This document shows positions 15,759 through 57,500 of a DNA stretch of 64,000 nt, one piece after another. Each line of letters starts with the position of its first letter. Position 1 is the stretch's first letter. Location of the stretch: NCBI RefSeq assembly GCF_018873765.1, contig NC_057925.1, forward strand, positions 48,267,010 through 48,331,009, in the 5' to 3' direction. Below the pieces are notes generated by a model. The model had not been told where the DNA came from. It ran no database searches and was given only the letters and a program-made list of their open reading frames with translations. The position numbers were made by a program, and so were the translations under genes. Source of the stretch: Telopea speciosissima. Its lineage: Eukaryota > Streptophyta > Magnoliopsida > Proteales > Proteaceae.

Positions 15759-15862
15759 AAAAGGGGCATCCCAGTGCACGAGGCTCCCGCTACTACAGGA
15801 TCTGGGGAAGGGGAGATGTACGCAGCCTTAACCCCGCTTCACAGAGAGGCTGTTTCCTTTAA
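15759..15862 (-). mobile_element. Au SINE, 5'-truncated
   Basis: Reverse-strand match to the Au SINE body ('cccagtgcacgaggctcccgc', 'gatctggggaagg', 'acgcagcctta', 'agagaggctgtttcc'). It is flanked by a perfect 15-bp target duplication, TGAAATCTCTCCCCT, at 15744-15758 and 15863-15877. The tRNA-related 5' part with the A and B boxes is missing, as expected for incomplete reverse transcription. Confidence 0.9.
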
Positions 15863-24426: not shown

Positions 24427-24592
24427 GTATCTATTTACCCAGTGCATGGGGCTCCCGCCATTACGGGGTCTGGGGAAGGTCATGATGTACATAACCTTAT
24501 CCCTGCTTTCGCAAAGAAGTTGTTTCCAAATTCAAACCCATTACCACTTGGCCACGTACAATTGAGCAACCTTTACCGTTGCACCAAGGAGA
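24427..24592 (-). mobile_element. Au SINE, near full length
   Basis: Reverse-strand Au SINE. The body ('cccagtgcatggggctcccgcc', 'ggggtctggggaagg') continues into the tRNA-like 5' part ('ttcaaaccca', 'ccgttgcaccaagg'). Many substitutions suggest an old copy. I could not define a target duplication. Confidence 0.85.
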
Positions 24593-24649: not shown

Positions 24650-24770
24650 AAAGAAAAAAAGAAAAGGCGTACCTAGTGCACAAGGCTCCTGCCACTACAT
24701 GGTCTGGGAAGGGTCATAATGTACACAAACTTACCTCTATTTTCGCAGAGAGCCTATTTCTACAGCTAAA
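24650..24770 (-). mobile_element. Au SINE, 5'-truncated
   Basis: Reverse-strand Au SINE body ('gcgtacctagtgcacaaggctcc', 'ggtctgggaagggtcataatg'). An A-rich stretch on its left and 8-bp flanks GCTATAAA at 24642-24649 and 24771-24778 mark the insertion. It lies only about 60 bp from the neighbouring SINE. Confidence 0.82.
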
Positions 24771-45500: not shown

Positions 45501-48500
45501 AGTTAAGACCAATTGCTAATTAAACTTGAAGAGAGGGTTTTTTTGGAATTTATAGTAAAGGGAGGAAGGGTGCAAGTGTTAGCTAGTGCGTCTCCTATAA
45601 GCGACGAGCTGCGTTGGCACCCAAATGTGGTGATAATAGGCAAGGGTTCTCGCACCATGGCCGAGTATTGGTAAAGAAGCTAGTCCAAAAGCGTAGGATT
45701 AGATTAGCAGCTTGGAACATTGGATCTTTAATAGGTAAGAGTCTAAAATTGATAGATGTTATGAGGAGGAGGAGGATTAACATAGCTTGTATTCAAGAGA
45801 CTAGACGGAAGGGTAAAAAAGCTAAGGAGTTGGACGACTTTAAACTTTGTTATATGGGGGATAAAGTAATAGAAATGGAGTGGACATAGTAGTGGATAAA
45901 TATTTAAAGAATGATGTGGTGGATGTCAAAAGATTCGGAGATAGGATTTTATCCATCAAACTTGTGTTGGAGAAAGAGGTTTGAGGGCGGACCTTGGTGC
46001 AACGGTAAGGTTGCTTCATTGCGACCTAGTGGTCGGGGGTTCGATTCGGGAAAGAGCCTCTCTGCGAAGCAGGGGTAAGGCTGTGTACATTATGACCCTC
46101 CCCAGACCCCGCAATGGTGGGAACCTAACCTCGTGCACTAGGTATGCCCTTTTTTGTGTGTTAGAGAAATAGGTCATCAATATAATTAGCGCTTATGCAC
46201 CTCAAGTAGGGTTGGATGAAAGTAGTAAGTTACAATTTTGGGAGCAATGGATGGATTAGTGCAAGGTTTTAGTCAAGGAGAAAGGATTATTATATCTGAA
46301 TGGACATGTTGGGAAAGATCGTAGAGGCTATGACGGTGTACATGGAGGATAAGGATTTGGAGAGAGGAGAGGAGGTGATCTCATTTTTTTTGATTTTGTT
46401 GTGGTTTATGATTTATCCATTATAAACACTTATTTTGAAAAGAGAGAGAAGCATTTAATTACCTTCAAAAGTGGGCATCATGGTAGCCAAATAGATTTCT
46501 TCCTAACTAGAAGGTCCAATAGATTATTATGTAAGGACTGTAAGGTTATACCTAGGGAGGGCCTAACAACACATCATAGGTTACTGGTCATGGATATGTG
46601 CCTCACTACGCAGAATCGTAAGAAAGGTGGGCTTATTTTCCCAAGGATAAGGTGGTAGAGCTTAAAAGGAAATATTTGGAATCATTTAGTGATAAAGTGG
46701 TCAAACAAGGAAAGTGGGACTTTAAGGGAGACACTAATACGATGTGGAATGAGATGACTATTTGTATTAAGAAGGATGCTGAAGATGTTTTAGGCGAATC
46801 AAAAAGAAAATGTCATTCCTCTAAGGAGATTTGGTGCTGGGCTTATGAGGTTCAAGCAACCATTAAGACTAAGAAAACTAGTTTTATGTCATGACAAAGG
46901 ACTAAGGATGTAGATGATCTACAAAGGTATAAATTTGCCAGAAATGAAGCCAAGAAGAATGTGGGAAAAGCATGGGTGAAGAAATATGAAGATCTTCATA
47001 ACAATCTGAGCACAAAGGAAGGGGAAGAAGTTATTTATAAGATAGCTAAAATGTGGGAAAGGAAGAGTAGAGATCTCGACCATGTTAGATGTATAAAAAA
47101 TAAAGTTGGTAAAGTACTAATAAGGGATGAGGACATTAAGTAGACGGGGAAAGATTATTTTTGCAGCCTACTAAATGGAAACACTACTAGTAATAGTGTC
47201 ATGGAAGATTGCATTACCCATCAAAACACCACATGTCGTAGATATATACGAAAAATTAGGGTGTCTGAAGTAAAAGAAGCTTTAAGGAGGATGAAAGTAG
47301 GCAAGACACAAGGTCCAGATGAGGTCCCAATAGAAGTGTAGAAGAGCTCAAGAATCTGTGGTTTTTGTTTCATGAAATAAGGGATTATGTGCTAATTACG
47401 AAAGAGGTTATCTTCAACCCCTCAATAAAGGCAACCAGCGGCAACGTCTATCGATTCCAATTGATAAAGCTCCCTGATGCAGAGCTGAAGCACTACATCC
47501 GCAAGAAGAAAGAAGAACAAGAAGTTGCCCAAGTAGAAGTAGTAGTAGTGGTCCAATAGTTTTTTTGTTTCCCAGGATTTTTTATGTTTTTAAATTGAAC
47601 CGGCCAACGTGGTTGAACCAGTGGTTCAATTTAAGTGACCTGAGTCACCCCCTTTTATTTATTATGTAAATTTTTTTTTTTTTGGGTCCACACCACACTT
47701 CCACGATTTAGAGAGAGTGTGGACTAGTCAAGTTAAGTCGGCTAGGGGTGGTTAGATTCCTAGGTTGAGTAGGTGTAAGGCTGTTGAGCCCTATTTAAAT
47801 TAATAGAATTTGTGGAGCTCATTACTCTCCACTTTGAAATTAAAATTATGCTTGTGCAAGCTGCTGCTGCTTCTCTTTCACTGTGAAGATTGCTTTGTGT
47901 CTGATTAAAGCAGGTGGGATTGGTGTTTGATCCAATCGACACCTTGCGGTGGGAAGCCCAGGTGGTTCGTACAAGCTCTCCTTTGCAAGATTCAATTTTT
48001 ATTCAAGGTTCTGCTGCTGCCGATTGATCTCTGCTACTGCAAGTAATTGTGACAACATCCCCATCCCCTTACGTCTTCTTCTCATCCTCTACAGCCCAAC
48101 CCTAACCTTCCCCAGTTAGTTTTTACTGTTTCCCACACTCTAAATGCTGTCCAGACCTAACCCTCCATCAGAATTATATCAAATTCAAACCACAGCATCA
48201 CCAACATACCCCCTCCACTCAATCCATACCTCTGCCCCACCCGGCCCTCAAAACCCTAGATGCCTTTAACCTCCTTTAAACCCCCAAAACCCTAAATTCC
48301 TGTCCACATAATTCCGGCCCATAATTCCAGCCATTAAAACCCTTCCTTACTCTGGCAGAGTGCTCATCTCTACCCCTGGAGAACTCGATCCAAAGCTCCC
48401 TCCCAATTTCCCACTATAAACCCTAGATTCTCTCACTTCACTCTTTTCAAAAACCCGAAACCCTAACTTGCTGCCATTCAATATTACACACTTCTGCTCA

Positions 48501-51500
48501 TCAAACCATCACTGGACCTTCATTGATAGACTCCCCTACACCTGCCTAGCATAACCATACCCTCAAACCCTAACCCTAACCCTAACCCTAACCCTAATTT
48601 TGACCTAAATCCTTATTCTGCCCCAATCGGACTGCCTGTTCATAGAAGATCCTGTAGTACTGGTTCCTAGTTGGTCTCCTATCCACCTAGGACTACATTA
48701 CTCTCTCGATACTAATCTATTCCGGTTGAAACTCAGGAATTAAACCTTAACTCATTACTCTCTTAGAAGTTAGAACATGCTGTAACAGTCCCCAAATCAC
48801 GGATTAAATAGCTTTTTTTATGCTGCAATCTGGTCTGGTGGTAGAAAGGAAAACCCATATCTGAACTTGACAGTAACTTCCCAGTCCAGCAGGTTCTCAA
48901 ACTGAAGTTCGGCAAGAAGGGGTCGCCCAAGGGTGTCAGCTGACCCTCCCAAGTTTGGGATTGGGAGATCAAAGCATGAAAGAGATCGACTAGGTTTCTA
49001 GTGAACACAGTTTAGTGCAGGTACAGAACTGAGAAAAGAATAGAAGAATAAGGGAACAGAGAAAGAAGAAATAAAGGAAATAGGAAGGTAAGATAAGAGC
49101 TTACCGGAGAGGGAATGAATCACACTGGAGAGTGGAAGAGAACAGGGAAACGGTAACCCACGGCAGTAGAAAATTTCCAATATTCTTATTCACTGTCTTC
49201 CAACGCAGGTTACATGCAACTATATAAAGATAAAGAATAGACTCCTATAGGAACTACTAAAACAACTTCTCTCAAAATAGAAAATTAACATCTAAATCTA
49301 ATTCCCTACACAGCTCTCTCCAATATAAAATAAAAGGCAATTACAAAAATATCCCCAATTAACTAAATAAACTCTACCAACCCTTATTGGACCAAAAACC
49401 AAGATTGGGCTGGTTTCGCCTTGGTCTGGGCTTCCAGATCAGGTTATGTTGGTCCAGTCATGATAGCACTACTGCATCAACTGCTCTGCTCTTTAAACAA
49501 CAATTGTGATTTAGTGTCTCGATATTTACCATTCCTTTGAAAAGACCTTACTGTTTGTTGTCCTGGTATGTTTCAGTGATGGAGGGATATCAGTTGCTTT
49601 TTCTGATGCTGGTGCAGAATGGGCTGAAGATTACATTTCTAATTTACGAAGTGCTTCTGCAAATATCTTTCAGCATGGTTCTATCAAATACAATACCAAG
49701 GAATACCCAATAGAATTGAAGCCTTTATTCTCAGCTTTTGGACTGAGGTCTTTTGCAATGACATCCTTGAGGTCCTTCTTAATGTTTTATTTGCCTCTTT
49801 TGGAGCCACGTTCGAACATAAACGAGGACGATGATGATTTCTTACAGGACTCCTCAGAAGAGCAGCATATTGATTTGGTTGTTCCCTTTAAAAAATCCAT
49901 CAAGCAAATAATTCGTGAGGTAAGTATTTACCAATTTCTTCCATATTTGTCACAAAGATTTATCTGGTTTAATCAATGTCAAATTGCCACTTTGCTAACT
50001 CATCCTGTTCCAGGATATTTTCATTCCTTATAATTAGCAAATTTGAGTTGGGAAAAAGGAAAATTGCGAAGGGCTTGAATCTACTGACATGAGAAGCATT
50101 GAATAGATAAAACTCTGGGGAACCACATTTTTGGTTGTCCAAGTCTTGTGGCTGTTGGCCTAACTAACAACTCATGAACCAACTTCTGTCATCCAAAGAT
50201 TTCACCAGACTTAGCACGGGCATCGGACCTGTCTCAGTGATGGTGGATCCTGTCTTAACTGGTTCAATCACATATAATTAGAATTGGGAAAAGGTAAACC
50301 GATGAGTAACTCTATTCTCACTGGAAGGAGAAAGATTCAGATTCCTGCTGAAATCTAAAAGGCTTGTCTATTATTTGTTGGACATTTTCACTGTTGGATT
50401 TCTTGCATGTCCATACTTGTCGTGCAAACCTTACCCTCCCTTTTCCTACACAACCGCCCAGGTGAAGGCAGGATTTGATCCCAGGACCTGGCAACAATAG
50501 GCCTAGGTCATTACCAGCTGCGCTAGCTGGCACTTATGCATGTTTTGACTTTAAGCCAGCTTAACACAGTCATACTTGGATGTTTCCTTTCAGTTCTAAA
50601 TTTTTGTTGATTGTGTCCTTTTTGACACTGTTTATTTATTTGCACTAAAATACACCTTATTTAGTGAATGTTTTCCTAGTCTGACACACAAATATAACTT
50701 TACCTGGTCTGTGCACCTTGTTGTCATGTGGAAGGGTGATGTAGCTATTCTGACCGTTGGATATTTAGGAAATGACATGAATAGGTCCATGTGTCATCCT
50801 TCAGCCCCAAATTCAATCATGTACCCTCCAATGTATGTTATGCACCCTCTCCAATAGTCCTGAATTTTGAAATGCTTTATTTCCATTTTGTTAACTCCAT
50901 TTGGTGAAACTTGCCATGTGAGCAGGGATCCTTGGGTTGTACATGTGAACAAAATTTCTGCGTCATCTGACCTGCTATGTGGCAGTAACTGAGGGCAGAC
51001 CAGGAAACCGTTACCCTATTTTTATTTATGTTTCCCATCATGTTTGCCCTTAGCTTTACTTACCTTTTTACCTACGTAATATAATATTATCTGACATATG
51101 AAGAGGCAAGGGGATAGAAGTTACTATTCCATAATGTAAGCATCAAATAAGTTCATTGTTATGTTGCCTTCCACTTTTTGGAAGGACCCCTTTCCCATTG
51201 TAGCTTGGATTACCTACCTGGAGAAATTCAAATACATGCCAATCACACGTAATAGATTATATTTATAAAGGTGTGTCACCATTCTGGATCAGGGTTTGCT
51301 TTGTCTGTGTCTACACATCATAGAGGTTAGATTTATTTTGTATTTATGACTAACCTGTTGATATTATCTCTCTTGAGATCTCATCAATCATTCTCTGCTG
51401 TGCTTTGCCCTAAAACTATTTCCAATAACTTTCAGATTTCAATAATTATACTGACCGTTGTCTTTTAGTAAGCATTTAATCCAACCTTCTCCCTCACTCT

Positions 51501-54500
51501 TAGTTCTTTAATTGGTGGGGGAATTTATCATGCTTCTTCTGTTTAAAATTTGTTTTACAAAGATGACCATGAATTTAGAGGTTCATTGATCATTAACTCC
51601 CTGTTCCAAGCCCAAATAAAGGAGGATTGGTGCGTCAGGTCGGCAGCCGGCATTGTAAAAACTTTAACCAAACCCTTTTGCATGGATTCTGGGATTTTTT
51701 ATTTTCAACCATGTGCTAGGGTGTCCCCCCACAAGCAACACATTGCATTATAACCCTGGTGTAGTGGATAGTGAGCAAGGCTTAGCTAGCGCATCCCTTG
51801 TAAGCGACACACTGCTTTGTTGCTGGTTGTGGTGACAAGTGGGCAAGGGTTCTTGCACCATGGACAAGTGCAAGTAAAGAAACTAATCCAAAAGCGTAGG
51901 ATTAGATTAGCTTCTTGGAAAATGGGAACTTTAATGGGAAGGATTTTGAATTGATAGATATAGTGAGAAGAAGAATTAAGATAGCTTGTATAAATTAGAC
52001 TAGATAGAAGGGTAAAAAGGCTAAGGAATTAGATCATTATAAACTTTGGTATACTGGGGATCAAAATAATAAAAGTGGGGTGAGAATAGTAGTAGATGAA
52101 TATTTTAAAAATGATGTTCTATATGTTAAAAGAATTGGTGATAGGATAATATCCATCAAACTTGTGTTAGGAAAAGAGGTAAAAGGGCGTACCCAGTGCA
52201 TGAGGCTCCCGCTATTGCGGGGTCTGGGGAGGGTCAAAATATATGCAGCCTTACCCCGACTTCATGGAGAGGCTGTTTCCAAACTCGAACCCGCAACCAC
52301 TAGGTCGCAATGGAGCAACCTTACCGAGTTAGGAAAAGAGGTAATCAATATAATTAGTGCTTATGCACTACAAATCGGATTAGAGCAAAATACTAGAAAC
52401 AATTTTGGGAACACATGGATAGATTAGTTCAAGGAATTAGTCAAGGAGAAAAGATTATTATAGGGGGAGATTTAAATGGATGTGTTGGAAGAGATAGTAG
52501 ACGTTATGAAATAATTCATAGAGAATATGGTTTATGAGATAGGAATGAGGAGGGAACTTTAGTTTCAGAATTTGTTGTGGCTTATGATTTATCAATAATC
52601 GGCACATGCTTTTAAAAGAGAGCATATTTAATAACCTTCAAAATTCGGTAAAATAGGCTTCTTTCTAACTAGAAGGTTGATAGGTTATTATGTAAAGATT
52701 GTAAGGTTGTACCAAGGGAGAGCTTAACCACGCAACATAGGTTAATGGTCATGGATATGTGTTTTAAAATGCTCAATTTTAAAAAATGTTAGATTATTTG
52801 TCCTAGGATAAGCTGGTAGAACTTAAAAGGAGAAAACTTGAAGACATTTACTGATAAATTAGTAACACATGAAAGGTGGGATTTCAATGGAGACTAATAT
52901 GATGTGGAACAAGATGGCTACTTATATTAAGAATGTATCTAAAGAAGGTTTAGGCGAATCTAAAGGAAAACGACATTCATCTAAGGAAATTTGGTGGTGG
53001 AATAATGAAAAGTTCAAGCAGCCATTAAGGTTATGAATCTAATTTAAAATGTTAGGGAAGGCAAAGACTAAGAAATATGAGGATCTCTATATCAATTAGG
53101 CACAAAGGAGGGGGGGGGGGGGGGGCGGAAGATATCTATAAAAGTGAAGATGGTAATGTATTTATAAATAATGAGATTAAAGAGAGATGGAAAATTTATT
53201 TCTACAACTTACTAAATGAAAACAATACAAGTCATAGTGTTTTAAAAGGTTGTAATAACCATCAAGAAACCAAAAATCTTAGATATATACCGAAAATTAG
53301 GGTGTCTGAAGTAAAAGAAGCTTTAAAGAGGATGAAAATAGGTTAAGCAGGTCTAGATGGTACTTTGGTAGAGGCGTGAAAGAGCATAGGAATTAGTGGA
53401 ATAACTTGGCTAGCTAAGTTGTTTAATAAGATCATGAGCACAAGAAAAATGCCAGACGAATGAAGGAGAAGTATTGTGGTTCCAATTTATAAAAATAGAG
53501 GTGTTATTCAAATCTGTAATATTAAATTAGGGGAGAGAGTAATTGAAACCTGTCTGAGACAAGAAACTAATAAATTGGATAACTAATTTGGTTTTATGCC
53601 AGGAAGATCAACCACAAAAGCTATTTATTTGCTTGAGAGAGTACTTCAAAGATTTAGAAAATGTAAGAAAGTACTCCATATCTTTTTTATTGACATAAAT
53701 AAATCTTATGAGAGAGTCCCTAGAGAGTTAATTTGGCAAGTTTTAGAGGAAAAGTGCTTTGATTAAGTATGTGGGCATAGTTAAAGATATATATAATGGT
53801 GTAGTGACTTGTGCAAGGACAGTTTTGGGGGGGGGGGGAGGGGAGTAGTGAATTCCCAGTTACAATCAAATTACATCAAGGATCAACTCTAAGCTCGTAT
53901 TTGTTTGAACCAATCATAGATGAGCTGACTAGAGGCATCCAAGACCAGAACCCTTGGTGTAAAAATTTTGTTATTGATATTGTTTTGGTGGACGAAACAA
54001 AAGTAGGGATAAATACATAGTGGGAATTATGGAGATCAATGATGTAGACTTAAGGGTGCATATACAAAGAGGAATAAAGGCCACAAACAGACCCACTAAT
54101 GTAGAAGGAGTTCAACTAAGAACCACTCACAGTAGGATCGATAATAGTTACAGTAGAACACCAAAATAGAAACTAAATCAGAATTAGTAACTTAGTGAAT
54201 AAGGACCAAACCAGCAGCAGGAATGGCTCCAAAGTAGGATCGAGTGAAGGCCTAGGCAAGGGTGGTTTGTGCTCCAAGTATCAGCCAATTCTAATGGCTG
54301 GTTGTGAAGTTAATTCAAGTCTGAAGTTTGCAGCAGATTCTGGGCAGAACTGAGATCGCAGGTGCAGCAGTCCTTCACTTGATTGTGTAAACAGCAGCAG
54401 CAGTACTTGGTGATGATTGTGGATTGATTCAAGTCTTCAAAGAGTTCTCCAGCTGCAGTTTATTGCAGTCACAACTCACAAGATGGCAGCAACAGTAGGG

Positions 54501-57500
54501 GTCGATTGGAAGAACTAAAAAAAAAAGAAAATAGAAGGATAGATAGAAAGGGGGATAGGGATAGGAGGGGGGGGGGTAGGCTATCTCAACATTGAGTCTC
54601 TCACCCATAGCTATCTCAGCTGTTGAAAGGCAAATTCTTTCTCAGAATTGGAAGGGGGTTGGTGGTAGGTTATCTCAGCATTGGGTCTCTCACCCACAGC
54701 TATCTCAGCTGTTGAAAGGCAAATTCTTTCTCAGAATTGTGCTTGTAAATTTCATTAATCAATTGGTGACTCGGGTGCCAATTTTGTTGTTTCGGTAAGC
54801 TTACAAAATAGAAAAGTAAGAAATTGGAACTACTAAGGCTTTAAAGAATCCAGCCTTCTAAACAAACAAGGAAACAAAAATAGAAACTAACAAAAATTAG
54901 AAGCTACCTAAATGAAATAAAATAAACTTTCTAAAACTGAAAATAGAAAATTAACTTTGGCAGCATTAGGATAAGATCTTTCTCCACTTGATGGGCCCAC
55001 AGGATCTTCTAAAAAGCATCCCCCCACACAAGGCAAATATGGGCTGTGACATTGTTCACGTGAACAGTAACATGAACAATGTTTTGGTCTTTTTTTCTTC
55101 ATATTTCGATCTACATCAACTCTACCCCACTTAAAAGAAATTCGACCTCGAATTTTAACAAGTGTAGGACCAATCTTCGTGTTGTGCACGTTTGTCTTCA
55201 ATCCATAGCAGGATTCAGGTAGTGCTTTGAAGATACGAATGTAATCCAAAAGGTTTGGAGTTCGTTCTTCAAAGTACTTTGGTGGAATAACAAATTCCAC
55301 GTGTTCAACTTCCACATCATCAGTCGTGTCCATGGGGTTGTCCACGAATGTTTCTTCGACCTTCTTTGCTTTAAACTTAAGCTCTCTAAGTTTTCCTTGT
55401 CATTCATAGCCTCCTCAATGGTTTCTTCTTGTTGGGGAACCATAATCATCTCGGCTGTCTCTTCCTTGACGACTTCGACATAGGCCTCCTTAGTAGGACC
55501 ATTGAGCTGTTTGTCTAACATCTGCAGAATTGCTTGCAGTGTCATAGTAGCATTTGTAGGAGGTGGACGGTAACCAGGACAAAAATCAGCTTTTAGCTCT
55601 TGAACTTCTCTCTTCAAAGAAGCAACTCCTTCAACCAACTGTTGTACAGCTAATAAAAGATCATCACTAGCATTTATCAGAGCATGGTTAGGGTTCTTAG
55701 AATTCCCCTCTTCCATGGCTTTGATACCAAATAATGTAGGAGTTCAACTAAGAACCACTCTACAGTAGGATCGATAATAGTTGCATTAGAACACTAAAAT
55801 AGAAAAAATAAAAGGCTGAAATTAGAAAGTAATCAAATCTGAGCAGACCAGCCGCAGGAATGGCTCCAAAGTAGGGTTGAGTGAAGGCCTAGGCAAGGGT
55901 GGTTTGTGCTCCAAATATCAGCCAATTCTAATGGCTATTTGTGAAGGTATTCATGTCTGAAGTTTGCGGCAGATTCTAGGCAGAACTGAGATCGCAGGGT
56001 GCAGCAGTCCTTCACTTGATTCTGTAAACATTAGCAGCAGTACTTGGTGATGATTGTGGATTGATTCAAGTCTTCAAAGAGTTCTCCAGCATTAGTTTAT
56101 ACCAGTCACAAGATGGCAGCAACAGTAGGGGTCAATTGGAAGAACAAAAAATAGAAAATAGAAGGATATATAGAAAGGGGGATAGGGATAGGAGAGGGGT
56201 GGGGGGGGGGGGATAGGCTATCTCAGCCTTGGGTCCCTCACCCCCAGCTATCTCAGCTGTTGAAAGGCAAATTCTTTCTCAGCATTAGAGGAAAGCATTG
56301 CTTGTAAAGTTCATTAATCAATTGGTGACTCTTTCTTACAATGGGTGCCTATTTTATAGCTTAGGCAAGCTTACAAAATAGAAACTAATGGAAAATAGAA
56401 ACTACTAAGGCTTTATAGGATCCAGCCTTCTAAACAAACAAGGAAACAAAAATAAAAACTAAACTTTGGCAGCATTAGGATAAGATCTTTCTCCACTTGA
56501 TGGGCCCACAAGATCTTTTAAAAAGCATCCCCACATAAGGCAAATATGGGCTGTGACACTGTTCACACAAACAGTAACGAACAGTGTTTTGGTCTTTTTT
56601 TCTTCATATTTCGATTTACATCACCCACACTTGGGCCCAACGACTGAAGTGTTTTAACTAGCTCATGATAGGCCATAACTTAAGTTGAGCTCACGATAGA
56701 CCATAACTTAAGTTGCAAGTCAGGTCCATATATGGCCCATATGCTAATTATCACTTAAGCCCATGAGATAACTTTTGAGTAGCCATTGACCAGCTTGGTT
56801 GGAGGATTTCTTTGGTCCATGTGACTGCCACATGGGTGTTGCTACAAGCTAAATTGGTTTCTAAAGTGTTTTAGTTCCTATTATGCTTAGTTTTCATCTA
56901 TATAATAGACTTATTGTCGCAGTGGCAACTAAGAATCTCACTTCTGTTTTTAGAAAGTTTCTATTTATTGTAGTGGCTTAGCAACCAAGTAACCCCATGC
57001 ATGGTAGGATGACCATTGCTTATATCTTGTTATTGGAGCATATAAATAAAGGAGATAGGCATGATGCACACTATTTTGGCTATTTAAAAAATTGCTCTTG
57101 TAAGTGTAGCTACTGTGGTAATTCAGTTGCAAAGGTCCTTGGTGGTGAAGCTGACCTAATAAGCTTGGTGGTGATACCAAGTCATATCCTCCCTACCCTT
57201 CTCCCATCTTCTCTTTCTCTTTCTTCTACCTTGCTGTTCTGTTGATTTCCAGCAACCTCCTTCTTTACTATCTTGGTCATCTATTGGTAATATCTATTCC
57301 TTCTTATGTTTTCTCTTATATTTATCATATATCTGTTTGTTACTATTTCTGCAGATTTATTTTCTGTTTCTCCACTCCTACAGTTTTCTGATTTGCCATA
57401 TTCTAACAGCAACTTTGTCGTACTCCCAATCCAGCACTTCGTTAAGGCTCAAACTTTGACCTAATATTCTCCTCCTTAGGCCTTACCTTCAACCAGGATT

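Follow-up and report, generated by a model that had tools for sequence, protein, structure and literature searches.

Two Au-like SINEs inserted in opposite orientations at nearly the same site of two old LINE copies in Telopea speciosissima

Two copies of one retrotransposon family in Telopea speciosissima each carry a short interspersed nuclear element (SINE) at almost the same internal point, with the two SINEs facing opposite ways. Does this mark an insertion hotspot, a SINE directed at the element that it has hit, or a coincidence? We investigated the question in a 64,000-nt stretch of genomic DNA (the window; assembly GCF_018873765.1, contig NC_057925.1, positions 48,267,010 to 48,331,009), in which the two long interspersed nuclear element (LINE) copies, A and B, lie in the same orientation, belong to one LINE family and have their SINEs 6.2 kb apart. 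We provisionally take the SINEs to be Au elements and the LINE to belong to the RTE clade. Our reading is that SINE A and SINE B are probably independent, ordinary target-primed insertions of the Au type into two old LINE copies, brought together by chance in an Au-rich stretch, maybe with a weak preference for (A/T)TT sites and a mildly insertion-prone zone. The site is not a strong hotspot, and the insertions do not reflect a directed mechanism.

LINE copy A (45572..47345, plus strand), delimited by aligning it with copy B and further copies from the genome, comprises an endonuclease-like part and the start of the reverse transcriptase (RT) part and is split by SINE A. This SINE (45983..46155, plus strand, from sequence and alignment, with limits ambiguous by 1-3 nt) is full length and ends in a T6 tail. 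Its target-site duplications (TSDs), read from the plus strand, are TTGTGTTGGAGAAAGAGGT on the left (45962..45980; an automatic call, TGTGTTGGAGAAAGAGGT, is one base shorter) and a right copy at 46156..46174 with a TG slip (an extra TG) and two substitutions. LINE copy B (51775..54002, plus strand, from alignment) has endonuclease-like and RT parts, is split by SINE B and has lost its 3' end. SINE B (52183..52327, minus strand, from sequence and alignment) is 5'-truncated by about 20 nt and stands between identical plus-strand TSDs, GTTAGGAAAAGAGGTAA, at 52166..52182 and 52328..52344. Both SINEs are thus flanked by TSDs, as expected of target-primed insertion. Each pair of TSDs agrees with the LINE copy in which it lies. 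The inverted arms of the two SINEs (46003-46126 and 52203-52326) are 85% complementary. The sequence-only reading had described two LINE copies, each with an Au SINE, in opposite orientations, and this arrangement is present, A being plus and B minus. LINE A and LINE B are about 75-77% identical over the longer aligned pieces, and because their mutual identity is just that, both copies must be old.

SINE A is about 173 nt long with its T6 tail, which fits the Au length (about 181 nt) and the short T run. A stretch in the SINE, GGTTCGATTC, looks to the eye like a B box; ARAGORN returned no tRNA genes in the 64-kb window. The LINE is best defined through its RT. In LINE B, one read-through frame matches RVT_1 with an E value of 1.4e-5 and 25.4 bits, under the Pfam cut-off of 29.6, and the open frame of a related copy (L030; numbers of this kind denote loci) matches at 1.6e-21, which identifies a non-LTR-type RT, LTR being long terminal repeat. 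Among the best solved-structure matches of the RT of a related copy are R2 and LINE-1 proteins. Upstream of the RT, the open frames of related copies resemble an APE-like endonuclease by eye; Pfam gave no endonuclease match for L033, L020 or the window frames tried (with X at stops). An exon-like frame between LINE copies A and B likewise had no Pfam match, and neither the window nor the fetched loci showed the 3' end of the LINE.

How close are the two sites? We set position 0 at the c of 'cttgtg' in each LINE copy. The TSD of A spans about +1 to +19 and that of B +5 to +21, an overlap of 15 nt, and both lie in the endonuclease-like coding stretch, directly before an AYxPQ motif, as visual inspection of the open frames in related copies indicates. 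The sequence-only reading had placed both SINEs at one target position; the shared stretch bears this out, but the TSD ends are offset by 4 nt on the left and 2 nt on the right and do not coincide. A third Au, SINE C, sits in the same zone at C3:15855 (in L233, plus strand, 5'-truncated), with TSD AAGCTTGTRTTGGAGA spanning -3 to +12 and junctions CATC|AAGCTTGTATTGGAGA on the left and TTTTT|AAGCTTGTGTTGGAGAAAGAGG on the right. All three insertions fall within one 25-nt zone of the LINE, which holds a purine run, GAGAAAGAGG, between AT-rich stretches.

Under a target-primed model, the tail and TSD positions suggest how two such insertions could arise. For A, the bottom strand would be nicked at CAAAC|TTGTG, at the left end of the site, and would prime cDNA synthesis on the T/U tail. 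For B, the top strand would be nicked at GAGGTAA|TC, at the right end, and would prime there. The two primary nicks would then be about 20-21 nt apart, and because the TSDs are about 17 nt long and priming would start from opposite strands about 20 nt apart, the duplicated segments would be nearly identical. By the same model, the tail positions of A and C suggest bottom-strand priming for both, at points 4 nt from each other. That SINE A and SINE B fall so close together would be a coincidence in DNA rich in Au, to which a weak (A/T)TT-site preference and a mildly insertion-prone zone may have contributed.

The LINE copy that holds SINE C (L233/L079/L234, C3:15854700-15857000) contains SINE C at the zone and two further Au SINEs at the L079/L234 site. 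These two are separated by about 100 nt, in which LINE pieces are repeated, and each adjoins ATAGTAGCCAAATAGAT.

Next, we asked whether the two SINEs could descend from one event, either a single insertion copied along with the LINE or one SINE flipped in place. Their nearly shared position and the closeness of copies A and B would fit such a history. However, A and B do not agree in orientation, in TSD limits, in 5' truncation or in the relationships of either their SINEs or their LINEs. SINE A and SINE B are 82% identical, and each has a better sampled relative elsewhere (87% for A, L201; about 90% for B, L219 and L075). By bit score, which depends also on length, B ranks 86th and C 109th of 109 entries for SINE A, self included, A ranks 68th of 109 for SINE B, self included, and for SINE C, B ranks 16th and A 83rd of 92. 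On the LINE side, A is nearest to L144 (right) and L248 (left), B to L167 and L032, and C to L034 and L248. The tail of SINE B adjoins one TSD, and the other TSD adjoins an end that lacks its first 20 or so nt, as in a fresh and ordinary 5'-truncated minus insertion. An in-place flip would also lack an inverted repeat to act between, the TSDs being direct repeats. Both histories, the flip and the copying along with the LINE, were thus rejected on TSD limits, truncation, and SINE and LINE relatives.

The plus pair, A and C, needs separate mention, since their LINE parts belong to one subfamily and their left pieces have a common best relative, L248. Nevertheless, C comes just 10th and 12th in A's right and left lists, the two SINEs are not mutual nearest relatives, and TSD limits and 5' truncation differ among all three insertions. 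TSD limits, truncation, and SINE and LINE relatives all differ, and therefore each LINE copy was hit separately. SINE A and SINE B are independent insertions, as the sequence-only reading had held, and descent from one event is extremely improbable.

We then surveyed the site across LINE copies. A 27-mer from the left flank gave 348 matches at up to 3 mismatches, of which 100 were listed, and the right flank gave 245, again with 100 listed; a shorter LINE 21-mer gave 816 matches against 28 for a reversed-pattern control, or about 790 LINE matches net. We read 98 left-anchor loci, 95 of them distinct, made up of 90 of the 100 listed places plus 5 further loci, and typed the remaining 10 listed places by coordinates alone. 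Only one of the 95 distinct copies had an Au at the site, namely seed B (seen as L005 and L014), leaving 0 of 94 distinct non-seed copies. None of the 19 right-flank loci read had one either; 18 of these are new copies, L240 being seemingly the far side of the L179 copy. Coordinates alone gave the same picture, in pairs that overlap the read loci: 14 of 15 left-right pairs were spaced 39-42 nt, as at an empty site, and one (B) 204 nt, while 13 of 14 motif-right pairs were spaced 21-29 nt and one (B) 183 nt. Copy A is in the right-flank list and not among the 100 listed left-flank places; A and C3:15855 stand outside both occupancy sets. Among these well-matching copies, occupancy of the site by Au is not clearly above that of other positions. 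The strong target preference that had been proposed from the sequence alone is therefore not supported, with 0 of 94 and 0 of 19. A count of SINE insertions across LINE copies had been suggested as the check, and in the best-matching copies it found no Au at the site except in B; one more Au, that at C3:15855, came from a LINE copy outside this count.

We also searched from the SINE side. A 20-mer from the 3' region of the SINE had 7444 matches (control 39), about one per 111 kb. Among 100 listed SINEs of 341 matches, with short flanks, three were inside the LINE query parts, namely A, B and L079, or 1 of 98 with the seeds excluded; the LINE query for these flanks did not include the LINE 3' end. 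Locus L070, first considered as a SINE inside a LINE, was rejected, because the SINE lies next to a LINE copy without its 5' part, in which the site is empty. Searches with the natural A and B chimera junctions (the best 40 of 4327 and 40 of 3950 candidates scored) returned C as the sole non-seed at the zone; weaker junctions would escape such searches. A control chimera at the L079/L234 site (the best 40 of 3592 scored) found the locus it was taken from, which holds two SINEs, and also a candidate LINE-SINE pair at C8:62979, with the SINE 238 nt from the LINE anchor at another LINE position. A minus-insertion junction pattern had 84 matches against 94 in the reversed control, no excess, and among the 30 extracted B was the only match placed at the site with an Au; the match at C1:54624268 is this LINE site with a non-Au insert (L150). 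The plus-junction pattern gave 32 matches against 67 in the control, and only A was recognised at the site.

Three further candidates were set aside. At C9:7480956 (L069), a SINE with a similar TSD, AGAAAGAGGTA, lies between LINE fragments, though not at the LINE site studied here. C3:70624613 (L235) has no LINE match, and the 150-nt insert of L071 shows no SINE match by eye.

Can chance account for such a coincidence? About 7,400 Au and about 790 LINE matches of about 2.5 kb each predict some 18 Au-in-LINE insertions. In a simulation with uniform positions, 18 insertions gave a pair within 4 nt with P 0.43 and a triple within 20 nt with P 0.14, and 25 insertions gave P 0.67 and P 0.32, respectively. 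The SINE-side figure of 1 in 98 would put the number near 75, with wide error, at which a triple somewhere is certain (77 simulated). The LINE-side sample points to fewer, as 113 kb of LINE-selected DNA, flanks included, held no Au besides B where about 1 was expected.

The window itself is rich in Au. The 20-mer matched 4 times in 64 kb against 0.6 from the genome mean, and alignment found five Au copies (15759-15857, 24450-24589, 24659-24760, A and B) and a 27-nt piece. In wheat, genes contained or neighboured 1268 of 1886 Au insertions (67.2%; PMC5787218), and this association agrees with the clustering of Au. The copies at 24450-24589 and 24659-24760 (minus) lie about 70 nt apart in one orientation, and that at 15759-15857 is also minus.

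Several points weigh against chance as the explanation. Had the zone been named beforehand, at least three insertions would have P 5e-4 with 18 insertions, and two further insertions given one seed have P 0.010. The 6.2-kb closeness of A and B was left out of the simulation. SINE C was found in a LINE copy fetched for another SINE, not selected for the zone, and was found again by junction search. Our survey was tilted to well-matching, probably younger, LINE copies. Finally, other sequences also interrupt the LINE densely at the zone and shortly after it: of 20 distinct non-LINE interruptions, 8 fall at 38-72 nt, counted from the start of the anchor, where exposure predicts 3.2 (p 0.0085), in a bin picked post hoc and with the exposure worked by hand.

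These points bear on an alternative, in which the 25-nt zone is a real moderate hot zone whose sequence or structure would favour nicking or entry, whichever the strand, by the Au machinery and maybe by further kinds of element. The interruptions were counted among 90 anchored LINE copies, 32 of which lose LINE homology before the end: 9 resume as LINE (an indel or rearrangement), one is B, two are merged duplicates (L150 with L152, and L022 with L179), and 20 are distinct non-LINE interruptions. One of the eight in the bin, L151, carries an insert of about 250 nt, after which the LINE resumes. In three of the 19 right-flank loci (L236, L240 and L250), too, LINE homology breaks off on the zone's 3' side. 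L179 and L240 (left place C3:33718754, right C3:33722725) seem to be the two sides of an LTR-like insert of about 3.9 kb in one copy, with TG...CA ends and a 5-bp TSD, GTAAT. The TSD zone corresponds to about 19-43 of the anchor, however, so most of the eight interruptions coincide with its 3' edge or follow within 30 nt of it.

Two observations on these loci stand apart. L022 lies 24 kb from L179/L240 with a closely similar left junction, so the stretch is probably duplicated. L150 and L152 (contig C1) have similar non-LINE sequence beginning TGATGTAGGG right behind the zone.

Sequence preference speaks for a hot zone at one point and against it at others. A target matrix built from those 36 of the 60 SINEs sampled first whose TSD reached the score limit (mean TSD 17.4 nt) is weak, with at most 0.27 bit per column, (A/T)TT at the TSD start and a leave-one-out area under the curve of 0.64. 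Nick A is among the best-ranked 5-7% of positions of L003, L004 and L034; the ranking for L028 was set aside, having been read from another CTTGTGT in that locus. Nick B as placed by its TSD (TTGA|TTACC) ranks 3305 of 5988 in L004, whereas the position one base away (TTG|ATTACC) ranks 83. Sequence preference was therefore rejected as the explanation of the site, the matrix being too weak and nick B as placed scoring poorly. In addition, the 94 and 18 other LINE copies have no Au at the site, and the control site L079/L234 also has two Au in one copy, so repeated hits are not peculiar to the zone. Thus, a weaker form of the preference that the sequence-only reading had proposed keeps the third Au and the dense interruptions in its favor, and has a weak matrix and mostly empty sites against it.

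We consider a real hot zone unlikely overall, though the least unlikely of the alternatives to chance. Its broader version, in which the zone and its 3' edge form an orientation-independent hot zone that receives Au and unrelated elements several-fold more often through local DNA structure or chromatin, appears slightly more doubtful still. If the zone were hot, the LINE family would be a natural multi-copy target assay for the Au helper, with about 800 LINE copies serving as replicate targets on which to measure where the enzyme behind T-tailed plant SINEs prefers to nick.

The sequence-only reading had also suggested that the LINE's own sequence attracts the machinery that mobilises Au, or that the SINE strikes its competitor or helper. 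That the site lies within the endonuclease-like coding part would suit a directed attack, in which Au would disable its helper. Nevertheless, the Au density of LINE-selected DNA does not exceed the genome mean, as given above, and of the 98 listed non-seed Au, L079 alone is inside the LINE query parts, while L070 adjoins a copy that has lost its 5' part. With 75-77% identity, LINE copies A and B are also old. The literature also gives the two kinds of element different tails. A review describes plant RTE LINEs as ending in (TTG)n or (TTGATG)n and Au-like SINEs as having T tails, and treats the partner LINE of these SINEs as unidentified (PMC3747384). Such tails give no reason to see the Au helper in the studied LINE, whose own 3' end was not seen here. 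Neither suggestion found support, and a directed attack or helper relation is very improbable.

Independent insertion of SINEs at almost one site has parallels in known systems. Same-site, opposite-strand SINE insertion is already published for human NF1 (PMC3219598). In NF1 intron 14, one cleavage site is reported to have been used on the antisense strand by a sense AluY and on the sense strand by an antisense AluYb8 (PMC3219598). These recurrent L1-endonuclease sites thus resemble the present case in having independent SINE insertions at one site on opposite strands. They differ in being human Alu/L1 with a known endonuclease motif, at a single-copy locus and in different patients, whereas here a plant SINE entered paralogous repeat copies. 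Parallel SINE insertions in toothed whales also place independent insertions at almost one position, graded as precise (TSD shift of at most 1 nt) or nearly precise (2-3 nt), with a frequency of 0.18-0.29% (PMC10531181). Those are orthologous loci between species, while here the copies are paralogous, and the shifts of 4 and 2 nt for A/B and 4-9 nt for C lie outside the whale classes. The A/B pair is a case of SINEs entering paralogous copies of a repeat recurrently, an event with precedents in the literature.

Nested plant LTR retrotransposons also show non-uniform element-in-element insertion (PMC6911290); they differ from the present case in being LTR elements with regional, not site-level, preference. 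The SINEs here are like plant Au SINEs, at about 180 nt (181 bp in PMC5787218) with a short 3' T run (PMC5787218, PMC3747384), the name itself being provisional. Among the matches listed in the open literature, no publication was, by its title, on Au insertion sites within LINEs.

A few minor features were also observed. As RNA, SINE A (window 45983-46156) has a fold that is more stable than those of shuffled sequences (z -3.9) and in which the 5' end pairs with the 3' end. Just past the 3' loss of LINE B lies a direct-repeat pair, at 54091-55118 and 55726-56623, about 81-91% identical in pieces. Lastly, a short CCCTAA telomere-like run occupies 48567-48597 amid unrelated sequence.

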